Assembly: GCA_007859745.1 (NCBI GenBank) | Contig: SMLU01000001.1 | Location: 1,922,001 to 1,986,000, forward strand | Direction of reading: 5' to 3' | Length of the DNA stretch: 64,000 nucleotides | Source: Phycisphaerae bacterium RAS1 | GTDB taxonomy: Bacteria; Planctomycetota; Phycisphaerae; UBA1845; Fen-1342 | In this document: positions 3,271 to 42,212 of the stretch, one piece after another | Layout of the letters: each line of letters begins with the position of its first letter | How positions within the stretch are numbered: the first letter of the stretch is position 1 | Translations under genes and position numbers: made by a program | The notes under the pieces: generated by a model | Told to the model about the DNA's origin: nothing | Database searches by the model: none | The model's input: only the letters and a program-made list of their open reading frames with translations

Positions 3271-3322
3271 CGGCCCCCGTGCGGCGTTTGGGTGGCACGG
3301 GCGTCTCGCCCGTGCCGAGTCT

Positions 3323-38358: not shown

Positions 38359-38421
38359 GGGTGGGACGGGCGTCTCGCCCGTCCCAGCGGATTAGGGACG
38401 GGCGAGACGCCCGTCCCACCC
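38359..38421. repeat. Perfect 27-bp inverted repeat
   Basis: 38359-38385 (GGGTGGGACGGGCGTCTCGC...) and 38395-38421 are exact reverse complements around a 9-base loop. It lies just upstream of the 36731-38248 gene and 13 bases past the stop of the carboxypeptidase gene. Related copies lie at about 3289, 10728 and 46269. Confidence 0.92.
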
Positions 38422-38433
38422 TAATGTTGCGGG

Positions 38434-40278
38434 TTACTTCACGCTGCAGCCAAGGCTGCGGCTGCCGACGCGCGGGCCGTTGAAGCGAATCTGCGCTTCG
38501 CCGCCGCCGGAGACGATCCACTCGAATGTGCGGAAGCCTTCGCCGGGAATGCCGTCGTCGATCCAGATTCGCTCCGGATGGTGCTCGACGAACGTCAGCG
38601 GTGACGTGAAGCGATTCTCAATCGTCCCGCCGGCGACCACTTTCAAACCGTCGCCGCTCAGCTCGATGCTGTCGCGCGGTCCGTAGCGGCGGCGGGCGGC
38701 CTGGGCGGTGGTAGTCGCGATGGCGCGGCGGTTGCAGACGTCGACGCGGACGCGCGACAGGCCGCCGCCCAGCGGCGCGACCTCGACATTCGTCAGCTCG
38801 ATAAGCGGCATCTGCTGGGCGTGGTAGACGGTGAACGCGAAGTTGCGGTGACACTCCTCTTCGAGATGAAACGACGGCGGGACGCGGCCGGTCATTTTGA
38901 CAAAGCCGCCCAGCTCGACGTCGCCGTAAAGGGGATGCTTGAACTTCTTCCAGGGCACGTAGGACTGGCCGAACATGACGTAATCGTTGAACTCCAGTTC
39001 CTCTTTCTGCGTGGCGCCCTCTTTGTTGCCGTAGAGATTGCGGTCGGTCCAGAGCTCGTTGGTGAAGCTGATGATGCCCAGCTCCTCGGCGGTCCAGTTG
39101 ATGAAGCCGCCGTGCACGTCGTACAGGTCTTTGTAGATCACCGAGTAGGTGTAGAAGGGAATGATGCGTTCGCCGCGCTTGCCGATGCGGTCGTAGGCCC
39201 GCAGATCGGCGGGCGGATACTCGGCCTCGCGCGCCTGCACGCCCGGGCCGCGGAGCATCATCCCGGCGGCGTTGTGATAGGCCTGGACGCCGGCGATGTT
39301 TGGATGGGCGACCAGAAAGTCGGCGATGGACTTGGACTCGGGCAGGCTGAGCGGGTAGTCGCCGGCGCCGAACTGGACGTAGTCCGGCTGCCAGGCGGCG
39401 GGCCAGTTGCGGTTGGGGTCGTAGCCGCCGGGGCCGTCTTCGTTGAAAAGTCCGTCGCCGTCGTCGTCGAGGCCCTCCATGCCGAGCATGGTGTAGCGCT
39501 TGTAGTCGCCGGGCTGCTGCGGATCGACTTGGACCATCAGCCGATAGTCTTCGGGGGATTCGCGCATGCGGCCGTTGGGGTCTTCGCGGCGCATCATGAG
39601 CAGCCGGCCGTCGCCGTCGAGGTCGTTGGGCGGGTCTTCGTCGAAGAGGCCGTCGCCGTCGTTATCGACCGGCTTTTTTCCGGTGCGCGACGAGCTGCCG
39701 GTGTTGGGGGCGCCGAACCAGTAGGCGCGGCCGTCCGGATTGACCATCGGGATGAAGTAGAACGAGGCCCGGTCCATGAGCTGGGTGAGCTGCTCGACCT
39801 TGCCGTAGCTCTTCGTGAGATACCAGATCGAGTAGAGCACGACTTCCGCCGCCTGCACTTCGTTGCCGTGGATGTTGCCGTCGATGTACATGGCCGGCTT
39901 GACCGTATCCGCGCCGGTCCTGGCGACGTTCAGCGTGACCAGCCACATGTCGCGGCCTTCAACGCTCTTGCCGATCGACTCGAGCTTGATCAGATCGGGG
40001 TAGGCGGCGACGAGCTGCTTGAGCGCCGCGGTGATTTCGTCGTAGTCGTGCAGCCGGTTCCAGGCGATCTCGACTTTGGCGGGGGCGTTGTAGCCGTCCT
40101 GGGCGGCCGCAGGAGCGGCGAGTGTGAGAAGCGTCGCCGCGGCCGCGATCCATGGGAGCAGGGCGCAGGGCGCAGGGCGCGGGGGCGTCTGTAGCGTCGA
40201 ACGTGTGTGTCCGACGTCGTCACTCACTGCTCGTTGCGCCGTCGGACGCAGAGGTCCGACGCTACCGGTATTTCTCAC
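38434..40278 (-). CDS. M14-family zinc carboxypeptidase, catalytically intact
   Basis: About 614 residues. Zinc ligands are present in GNIHGNEVQAAEVV (H137, E140) and AYHNAAGMM, and the catalytic Glu is in ISFTNELW. Two EF-hand-like segments (DNDGDGLFDEDPPNDLDGDG; GLDDDGDGLFNEDGPGG) resemble dockerin loops. GTG 40278 overlaps the upstream stop (GTGA). The first ~37 codons before the signal sequence (LLPWIAAAATLLTLAAPAAA) are encoded by a 16561-family repeat, so the true start may be later. It is the partner of the degenerate paralogue upstream. Likely periplasmic or secreted peptide trimming. Confidence 0.87.
   Translation of the reverse strand: MRNTGSVGPLRPTAQRAVSDDVGHTRSTLQTPPRPAPCALLPWIAAAATLLTLAAPAAAQDGYNAPAKVEIAWNRLHDYDEITAALKQLVAAYPDLIKLESIGKSVEGRDMWLVTLNVARTGADTVKPAMYIDGNIHGNEVQAAEVVLYSIWYLTKSYGKVEQLTQLMDRASFYFIPMVNPDGRAYWFGAPNTGSSSRTGKKPVDNDGDGLFDEDPPNDLDGDGRLLMMRREDPNGRMRESPEDYRLMVQVDPQQPGDYKRYTMLGMEGLDDDGDGLFNEDGPGGYDPNRNWPAAWQPDYVQFGAGDYPLSLPESKSIADFLVAHPNIAGVQAYHNAAGMMLRGPGVQAREAEYPPADLRAYDRIGKRGERIIPFYTYSVIYKDLYDVHGGFINWTAEELGIISFTNELWTDRNLYGNKEGATQKEELEFNDYVMFGQSYVPWKKFKHPLYGDVELGGFVKMTGRVPPSFHLEEECHRNFAFTVYHAQQMPLIELTNVEVAPLGGGLSRVRVDVCNRRAIATTTAQAARRRYGPRDSIELSGDGLKVVAGGTIENRFTSPLTFVEHHPERIWIDDGIPGEGFRTFEWIVSGGGEAQIRFNGPRVGSRSLGCSVK
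40191..40266. repeat. 16561-family palindrome at the 5' end of the carboxypeptidase gene
   Basis: GTAGCGTCGAACGTGTGTGT at the left and CGGACGCAGAGGTCCGACGC then TACC at the right form a diverged inverted pair. It is read within the first codons of the leftward gene, ahead of its signal peptide. Confidence 0.65.
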
Positions 40279-42212
40279 GGGCGCACCTCCGTAGTCGGCG
40301 GCGTCATTTTCAAGACGACCTCGGTCGGCAATTCGCCGTGCACGCGGTTGTACGCGGTGAAGGCGACTTTCTCGTCCGGCGCGCCGCGGATCAGCCAGCG
40401 CACTTCCGCCAAGCCGCCGCTGCCGGGGATATTCTCGACGCGTTCCATGCGTCGTCCGCCGATGATTCGCTCGCTGGGAAGCTGGGGTCGGATCACCCAG
40501 CCGGGCTGCTGCGCGTGCAGCGCCATGGCGGAGTGCGTCGGCAGGAAGCCCGCGTTGGTGAGTCGCAGACGCACTTCCCACACACCGGCGCCGTGGTCTT
40601 TCACCACCGCGGGGAGGAACGCGGGCGCTGGCAGCAGATCGCTCAGTTCCAGCAGCGCCGCGAATTGCTGATCGGCGATGGCGGTCAGATCGGCGGCGGG
40701 CGCGGCGGTCTTGAAATAGGGCGCGAAGCCGCCGATTTCGACTTTTCCGAATTCAGGATGATCGACCGCGGTCCAGGCGATGAATCCCTTTTTGTCCGGC
40801 GTGCGGTCGTTGTAGCCAAGCCATTTCTTGTTCGAATCGGAACATTCGACCGTGGCTGCAACGCCGGTTTCGCGGGCCGCGGTGTCTTTCGCTGCCGCTT
40901 CGCTGGACGGAGCGCCGCCCGGGGGGCCGCCGGGGAACATCCCTGCGCCTCGGCCGCGACCGCCGCGAGCGCCGCGTCCGGGTGGTCCGCCGCCCGGCCC
41001 GGGACTGGATGGTCCGCCGCCGGGGGATGGACCGGCGTCGTCGGGCTTTTTCGCGCCGCCGGGGCCGTCGCCCGCCGGAGCGGAAGCCGGTCCTGATGCG
41101 GGTTGCGAGGCGGGCGGCTCGGGCGTGATCCACGGGGTGATCGCGAGCGTGAAGACGCCCTGCTGTGCGTACAGCCATGAATAGAACGCGCCTTCCGGCT
41201 TGCCGCCGAACGAACTGCCCAGGCGCGATGTCTTCTTGAATTTCTCGGAAAGGGTGTCAAAGAGCGGCTTGTCGTCGGGATGCATGTCGCGGTACGGCTT
41301 GCCGTCGGGCTGCTTGTCGCCGGCCTTGGCGACCTGCACGATGTTGTCATTGCGCCCGTAGACGCAGGCCAGCACGATGTTGCGATGGGCCAGGACGAAG
41401 TCGGCCAGCGCCCGCGTCTGCGGCTCGGAGAGCGGGTGCAGGCCGCACTCGGCCGTGCCCGCTTCGAACAGATGCGGCCAGTTGCGATCGCAGTCCACTC
41501 CGCCGGGGCCGTCCTCATTGATCTGCCCGTCGCCGTCGTCGTCGATGCCCTCGACCAGCAGCTTGAATTCGCCCTTCTGCCCCTTGGCGCGGTCGGCTTT
41601 CTTCATGAGCCGCGGCTCGTCCGGATCGGCGATCCACTCGCCGGCCGGATCGCGGACGCGCATGACGCTGATTCGGCCGTCGGCATTCAGGTCGTTCGGG
41701 CCGTCCTCGTCGGTGCGCCCGTCGCGATCTTCGTCAAGCGGGCGACCGTTGGCACGGCGTTCCTGCGCGGGCGTTTCGAACATGGCGTCGTAGCCGTCCG
41801 GGTCGACGCAGGGAACGATGTAAACCGTTCGGCAGGCGAGCGACCTTGCCGCCGGGCCGTCCGGCTCTTTCGTCAGGCTGTCGATCAGTTTCGCGGCGAC
41901 ACGAAACGCGGCTTCTGTGCCAGTAGGGCTGTCGGCGTCGATTCCGCCGACGATCAGGATCGCCGGGCGGTGGTCGGGTTCGGTTGCCGCGGGGGCGGCG
42001 AGCGCCAGCGCCCAGACTTCGCGCTTCTGGGCCGTGTCGCTGAGCTTGATGAGCTTCGCGGCGGGGCCGGCTTGGGTTGCGGCGGCCTTGAGAGCAGCGA
42101 CCTGTTCGGCGTACTTACGGTAGCCGCCGTCGTCGGCTGTCGCCGTCGCAGACAGCAGTGCCGCCGTGAGCAGGAATGCCGGGCGTGCGGGTCGAGAGTG
42201 CGGGTAGGTCAT
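40275..42212 (-). CDS. M14-family paralogue lacking the zinc and catalytic residues
   Basis: About 645 residues, sharing architecture with the downstream gene: signal peptide, M14 fold, EF-hand-like inserts (DEDRDGRTDEDGPNDLNADG; GIDDDGDGQINEDGPGG, then CDRNWPHLF). Where the partner has GNIHGNE this has GGIDADSPTG, where it has AYHNAAG this has VYGRNDN, and where it has TNELW this has AITPW. All metal ligands and the catalytic Glu are therefore gone. A Gly/Pro-rich low-complexity insert (about 385-435) interrupts it. It is probably a binding or regulatory pseudoenzyme rather than a peptidase. Confidence 0.8.
   Translation of the reverse strand: MTYPHSRPARPAFLLTAALLSATATADDGGYRKYAEQVAALKAAATQAGPAAKLIKLSDTAQKREVWALALAAPAATEPDHRPAILIVGGIDADSPTGTEAAFRVAAKLIDSLTKEPDGPAARSLACRTVYIVPCVDPDGYDAMFETPAQERRANGRPLDEDRDGRTDEDGPNDLNADGRISVMRVRDPAGEWIADPDEPRLMKKADRAKGQKGEFKLLVEGIDDDGDGQINEDGPGGVDCDRNWPHLFEAGTAECGLHPLSEPQTRALADFVLAHRNIVLACVYGRNDNIVQVAKAGDKQPDGKPYRDMHPDDKPLFDTLSEKFKKTSRLGSSFGGKPEGAFYSWLYAQQGVFTLAITPWITPEPPASQPASGPASAPAGDGPGGAKKPDDAGPSPGGGPSSPGPGGGPPGRGARGGRGRGAGMFPGGPPGGAPSSEAAAKDTAARETGVAATVECSDSNKKWLGYNDRTPDKKGFIAWTAVDHPEFGKVEIGGFAPYFKTAAPAADLTAIADQQFAALLELSDLLPAPAFLPAVVKDHGAGVWEVRLRLTNAGFLPTHSAMALHAQQPGWVIRPQLPSERIIGGRRMERVENIPGSGGLAEVRWLIRGAPDEKVAFTAYNRVHGELPTEVVLKMTPPTTEVRP

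Follow-up and report, generated by a model that had tools for sequence, protein, structure and literature searches.

Why should a bacterium keep a carboxypeptidase without an active site directly in front of one that has retained it? This question is raised by two tandem genes of the M14 peptidase family in Phycisphaerae bacterium RAS1, located on the reverse strand of a 64,000-nt stretch of contig SMLU01000001.1 (assembly GCA_007859745.1, positions 1,922,001 to 1,986,000), which is referred to here as the window. The results of the analysis suggest that the two genes probably encode the subunits of one obligate secreted heteromer, one of them catalytic and the other a pseudoenzyme. Both open reading frames (ORFs), that of the upstream (dead) and that of the downstream (active) protein, are intact and lie where the original prediction had placed a tandem of M14 genes. 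Their products score 63.7 and 153.2 bits, respectively, against the Pfam family PF00246, for which the gathering score is 21.6, and both proteins of a relative's pair (L005) are likewise above this score. No NCBIfam model was found for either of the window proteins.

The zinc triad (HxxE and a further His) and the catalytic Glu of functional M14 enzymes are complete in the downstream protein and missing from the upstream one. In the alignment, the columns occupied by H138 and E141 of the active protein hold D92 and S95 in the dead protein, H336 is replaced by G286, and E409 by T359. Hence the proposed loss of both zinc-binding segments and of the catalytic Glu from the upstream paralogue is borne out at all four positions, and the HGNE and NELW motifs attributed to the downstream copy are indeed in place, together with the third zinc ligand.

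The distribution of the pair was explored by genome searches covering the kin of the window. Among 61 close and less close relatives, the genome of the window included, the dead protein has matches in 14 genomes (at 1e-6) and the active protein in 11 (at 1e-20). Eight of the matched genomes, again including that of the window, hold the pair; in G020 the active gene directly adjoins a contig end, and the relatives in G030 and G006 are distant and solitary. Across the class, 298 genomes were sampled: a profile built from nine dead proteins (threshold, 1e-25) and a profile built from ten active proteins (threshold, 1e-60) matched the identical 50 genomes, and the other 248 matched neither. Since the dead profile also recognises active copies, the DNA of all 50 matching genomes was fetched, and a dead ORF was confirmed in every one of them (50/50). 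A phylum-wide sample of 343 genomes gave 91 matches at E ≤ 1e-30, and the first 40 stretches, originating from 40 genomes, were examined; 39 of these contain a dead ORF, and the remaining one (L199) harbours a solitary active gene. A further 20 stretches, taken mainly from genomes with few or extra matches, are not part of the sets of 93 and 94 proteins described below. ORFs were dropped before counting if they scored below 300 bits in the class sample, or below 200 bits in the phylum sample, against either profile, and copies were assigned as dead or active by the higher-scoring profile, not by the residues that were then counted. The resulting sets of 93 dead and 94 active proteins include truncated ones, and three of the active proteins have no adjacent dead gene, namely L047 (contig edge), L199 (solitary) and L101 (partner elsewhere in the genome). 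A search of plasmids yielded one distant haloarchaeal M14 protein.

The active homologues retain the catalytic residues throughout (H 94/94, E 94/94, H 93/93 and E 91/91; the proteins missing from the last two counts are truncated), and the full set is kept in none of the 93 dead homologues. The first ligand position of the dead copies is occupied by D in 59, E in 12, H in nine and other residues in the rest; at the second, 37 have H and 20 have R, among others, and at the third, G is found in 83. Glu is present at the catalytic position in none of the 90 dead copies aligned there, its place being taken by R, P, N, S, T and other residues. One or two of the four catalytic residues are retained in 13 dead copies, and L191 retains H-x-x-E. 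Together with L192 (1782-3500), L191 (2174-5563) is a dead copy with part of the zinc set, and the two possibly represent early stages of inactivation.

Displaced zinc ligands, i.e., His and Glu residues taking over elsewhere in the upstream protein, were the alternative alignment that the original prediction had itself named as a threat. No such ligands were found among the conserved positions of the 93 dead homologues. The sole His among the positions conserved in at least 75% of them is H485, which is located in the C-terminal domain and is carried by the active copies as well; with no dead-specific conserved His, this possibility is ruled out. The Arg that is presumably equivalent to Arg127 of carboxypeptidase A is found in 92/92 pair-type active copies and in 29/93 dead copies. 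Dead copies have also kept part of the N-R of the NRN motif (N or D in 78/93, R in 62/93), and, therefore, some ability to bind a C-terminal carboxylate may remain in them.

Phylum-wide, the active ORF is found directly downstream of the dead ORF, on the same strand, in 89 of 94 cases, and the two are separate ORFs in all of these 89 adjacent pairs. Four of the five exceptions (L129, L133, L144 and L167) are located at contig ends. In 70 of the 89 pairs, the start codon of the active gene overlaps the stop codon of the dead gene by 4 or 1 nt; with the actual bases and a random downstream frame, the expectation is 29. These stop/start junctions support co-production of the two proteins, and translation of the two genes is probably coupled.

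A tree was built from 36 dead, 36 active and 9 other proteins (81 in all). In it, the dead copies form one clade (support, 99/95), the active copies, including L047, form another (94/90), and the outgroup is supported at 98/93. Thus, the subunits split once and have been co-inherited. Purifying selection acts on the dead copy: over the 13 close comparisons for which it could be computed, some of them with genomes in common, the ratio of nonsynonymous to synonymous substitution rates (dN/dS) ranges from 0.10 to 0.48 for the dead copy and from 0.05 to 0.32 for the active one, a fourteenth comparison being saturated. The distribution of constraint along the dead copy has also changed. Relative to the active copy, conservation is high in loop 1 (dead/active ratio, 0.91), one helix (0.91), loop 2 (0.82) and the C-terminal domain (0.80), and low in the linker before loop 1 (0.47), the HxxE segment (0.57), residues 300-340 (0.58) and the surroundings of the third ligand (0.62); the segment around the lost catalytic Glu is average (0.75). 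Constraint on the dead copy has therefore moved from the pocket to the DxDxDG loops. With strict co-occurrence, fixed order, overlapping junctions, separate clades and purifying selection, the pair is conserved in relatives along with the same residue losses, which was the check that the original prediction had asked for.

The original prediction had further credited the dead protein with a preserved fold, calcium-like inserts and a secretion signal. Inserts of the DxDxDG type are present in both window proteins. Single-chain models, computed from four-sequence alignments, are weak (dead protein: predicted local distance difference test score (pLDDT) 54.3, predicted template modelling score (pTM) 0.53; active protein: pLDDT 62.3, pTM 0.68), and, even from these, the best Foldseek matches of both proteins are M14 carboxypeptidases, the top one being carboxypeptidase T of Thermoactinomyces vulgaris (E-value, 4.8e-11 for the dead and 2.8e-13 for the active model). 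The same enzyme is among the best sequence-profile matches for both proteins. The secretion signal stands as a hydrophobic N-terminal segment in both window proteins, and, by the same hydropathy heuristic, applied without a signal-peptide predictor, such a stretch is found in 92/93 dead and 90/92 active proteins. Solitary active M14 relatives (L199, L203, L204, L214 and L217) share the DxDxDG loops and carry a zinc motif resembling HSSELTSG; it is possible that they constitute an unpaired sister subfamily.

Because the dead and active genes are so strictly inherited together, the pair is most likely one two-part machine. The subunit made first would be a pseudo-carboxypeptidase with the M14 fold, the metal-loop inserts and a C-terminal beta domain, devoid of zinc binding and catalysis, while the subunit made second would perform the catalysis. 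Both proteins would be made together, exported, presumably by Sec, and assembled into a heteromer. There, the dead subunit would act structurally, by way of its loop face and its C-terminal domain, and not through ligand binding in the old pocket. It could stabilise or position the active subunit or restrict access to it, and its role may thus be structural or regulatory. The original prediction had offered a heteromeric enzyme or a substrate-binding partner. The heteromeric unit is supported by co-occurrence, order, overlap, clades and selection, with contact between the subunits presumed, whereas substrate binding at the old pocket is weakened, since few parts of the dead protein are less conserved than the segments that once formed the pocket, and conservation is higher in the metal-loop regions and the C-terminal domain. 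A substrate-binding partner in the exosite sense is possible.

Several observations weigh against an obligate heteromer. In genome G274, the dead ORF (L100) and its active partner (L101) are found on different contigs, both away from the contig ends; no other examined genome has the two partners unlinked. In the comparison of 85 pairs, which leaves out six loci with truncated partners, the mean identity is 0.327 for the dead and 0.468 for the active copies, and the dead copy is the less alike, i.e., the faster evolving, in all 3570 of 3570 comparisons. The correlation of the partners' distances across these pairs (Mantel r 0.80; 0/999 permutations as high) speaks for the heteromer, but co-inheritance of any two genes would produce it as well. 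The partners share their nearest relative in only 49 of the 85 pairs, and so the fine branching is noisy. Finally, the loops are not specific to pairing, since the solitary active relatives, which belong to other lineages, carry them too, and the notion of the loops as a pair-specific interface is weakened accordingly.

A second kind of pair was found in family f58. In addition to the canonical pair, genomes G621 and G630 contain another tandem M14 pair, both members of which (X1 and X2) have no catalytic residues; in both genomes, the X2 start codon overlaps the X1 stop codon. A search with X1 gave matches at 1e-10 in 57 of the 81 genomes of the family, the canonical dead copies being included in this number. 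Fetching 20 strong places from 20 genomes brought the number of loci, with the two seeds, to 22. X1 is present in all 22 and X2 is found beside it in 20; of the exceptions, L239 stops at a contig edge, and no X2 was seen in L245. In L244 and L246, the match to X2 is only weak. The four catalytic columns are filled in X1, in order, by D (22/22), by S or A, by G (22/22) and by A, G or S; no copy of X2 has His at either His position. A simple loop pattern was matched in X1 at all loci except L246, in some of them by one loop only, and X2 is without metal loops (0 matches). In a quick tree, X1 and X2 group together beside the dead copies (93), a placement that long branches could produce; X1/X2 could be a duplicate of a dead-active pair. 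The existence of a fully dead pair speaks for a benefit of pairing beyond catalysis. The combined proposition, i.e., a phylum-wide obligate two-subunit M14 carboxypeptidase, active plus dead, and a sister pair in one family that is dead in both members and persists as a coupled secreted heteromer with a purely binding or structural role, is given somewhat less than an even chance.

This fully dead pair also bears on the first alternative, according to which the dead copy is a dedicated chaperone or a trans-acting prodomain that binds transiently, folds the enzyme or silences it until it is outside, and is then shed. Many M14 enzymes carry a prodomain, and in the N-termini seen, the active copies pass from the hydrophobic segment to the catalytic domain almost at once, with no prodomain between the two; the dead gene always comes first and usually overlaps the active start, as would suit such a helper. 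However, the dead copy has kept its catalytic fold entire, along with the C-terminal domain, much more than would be necessary in a prodomain, and X1/X2 comprises no enzyme to chaperone or silence. This explanation is considered unlikely.

Somewhat less probable again is that the dead copy is an adaptor for a matrix, wall or substrate protein that merely shares the operon, in the manner of the collagen-binding M14 pseudopeptidases of animals, which provide a precedent in the accessible part of PMC11266112. The long and variable Pro/Gly-rich linker and the purifying selection on the dead copy would fit this role, but the strict co-occurrence with one enzyme and the near-fixed adjacency exceed the needs of an independent adaptor, and neither a discoidin nor another binding domain was found in the window protein by Pfam.

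A different activity of the dead copy is improbable. In many lineages, D-x-x-H at the HxxE positions could bind another metal, given the frequencies of Asp at the first (59/93) and His at the second (37/93) position, and an Asp near the former third ligand is conserved in 81/93 dead copies. Against this, the window copy has Asp and Ser at these positions, the positions vary widely, as does that of the catalytic Glu, and the pocket segments are poorly conserved. Least credible of all is a decaying duplicate without function, for which the faster evolution of the dead copy and one frameshifted copy (L034, in a fragmented assembly) could be cited, and which is contradicted by phylum-wide retention, intact ORFs, dN/dS well below 1 and loop acids invariant in 93/93.

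The features of the locus are listed in Table 1.

Table 1. Coordinates of the features of the M14 pair (window positions, unless a locus is named).
Feature	Position	Strand	Basis
Pseudo-carboxypeptidase, dead M14 homologue, 645 amino acids	40275..42212	-	ORF; Pfam PF00246 E 2.9e-17; catalytic residues lost
Dead copy: former HxxE zinc segment, now D92-A-D-S95	41928..41939	-	alignment
Dead copy: DxDxDG loop 1 (residues 160-178), calcium-like	41679..41735	-	D162, D164, E169, D174 invariant 93/93; calcium binding predicted
Dead copy: DxDxDG loop 2 (residues 221-234)	41511..41552	-	E221, D224, D226, D228, E233, D234 invariant 93/93; calcium binding predicted
Dead copy: former third zinc ligand, now G286	41355..41357	-	alignment
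Dead copy: former catalytic Glu, now T359	41136..41138	-	alignment
Dead copy: Pro/Gly/Arg-rich linker, variable length, absent from active copy	40848..41117	-	alignment; low-confidence in model
GTGA stop/start overlap, 4 nt	40275..40278	-	sequence and junction survey; translational coupling predicted
Active M14 carboxypeptidase, GTG start	38434..40278	-	ORF; Pfam E 1.5e-44; catalytic residues intact
Inverted repeat, 29-nt arms, 17-nt loop, in 5' end of active ORF	40191..40265 (arms 40191-40219 / 40237-40265)	.	
Active copy: HGNE zinc motif (H138, E141)	39859..39870	-	
Active copy: third zinc ligand H336 (YHN)	39274..39276	-	
Active copy: catalytic Glu409 (NELW)	39055..39057	-	
X1/X2 seed pairs (further loci L227-L246)	L219 4628-8064; L220 6528-3320	+; -	

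The inverted repeat is located between the overlapping GTG and the hydrophobic segment of the active ORF. The first ~40 codons of this ORF traverse the repeat, which makes its true start uncertain; the best candidate is the GTG at 40278 that overlaps the dead stop. Words related to this repeat are found elsewhere in the window. Just 3' of the pair, at 38362-38415, lies a palindromic G+C-rich repeat of the GGGCGTCTCGCCC type, and similar words occur at 3298, 36080 and 46308. Downstream of the pair, at 38248-36731 (-), a secreted-looking protein is encoded that ends in two dockerin-like repeats; its match to the Pfam dockerin family falls short of significance (E 0.56). Across 95 loci, no neighbouring gene that could hint at the function was conserved beyond one family. 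The most populous clusters of neighbours are apparently artefacts of the pair itself, read antisense or in another frame, and are followed by a transporter-like ABC (ATP-binding cassette) protein in 14 of the 95 loci, its product name being read from the sequence alone. The pair looks self-contained.

A close parallel lies in another peptidase family. According to the accessible part of PMC11266112, the M16B peptidases, namely the alpha and beta subunits of mitochondrial processing peptidase and their bacterial two-gene homologues, are established heterodimers in which the role of the inactive subunit is known. As in M16B, inactive and active paralogues of one peptidase family form a two-gene unit here (89/94); unlike M16B, the present proteins match an M14 profile only, without the M16 fold or HxxEH, and their heteromer is presumed. 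The M16B relatives Core I and Core II of the bc1 complex are a precedent for lost catalysis, and X1/X2 may be likened to the canonical pair as the Core proteins are to mitochondrial processing peptidase (PMC11266112, accessible part). Within M14, the same source describes the third domain of carboxypeptidase D as inactive, with nearly all active-site residues replaced and substrate presentation suggested. Here, too, an inactive M14 fold is associated with active M14 domains, but carboxypeptidase D, as described there, is an animal protein with transthyretin-like domains and a membrane anchor in one polypeptide, whereas the present proteins come from separate bacterial genes. Secreted M14 pseudopeptidases are also known in AEBP1/ACLP, CPXM1 and CPXM2, which, unlike the window protein as judged by Pfam, have discoidin domains, and a further M14 pseudopeptidase is the fungal Ecm14, which differs from the window's dead copy in its Glu to Lys change at the catalytic position, its retained prodomain and its single gene (PMC11266112, in the part available). 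Carboxypeptidase T of Thermoactinomyces vulgaris remains the closest structural match to both models. It is a single active enzyme that is not known to have a dead partner, and AEBP1/ACLP, CPXM1 and CPXM2 are not known to have an obligate active partner gene. In the accessible part of PMC11266112, M14 pseudopeptidases are described from animals and fungi only, and planctomycetes are not mentioned; no report of a bacterial M14 active/inactive pair was found in the open literature searched, with most subscription journals outside its coverage.

Partnerships of an active with an inactive subunit are well known from the M16 family, and M14 pseudopeptidases have been described in animals and fungi. 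In bacteria, two separate M14 genes that are inherited as strictly as a single one offer a clean natural experiment on the purpose of a pseudoenzyme subunit: paired sequences are available from dozens of families, the solitary relatives provide the state before, and the all-dead sister pair provides the state after. If the combined proposition is true, the latter would be an enzyme complex caught in transition to a non-enzyme complex.

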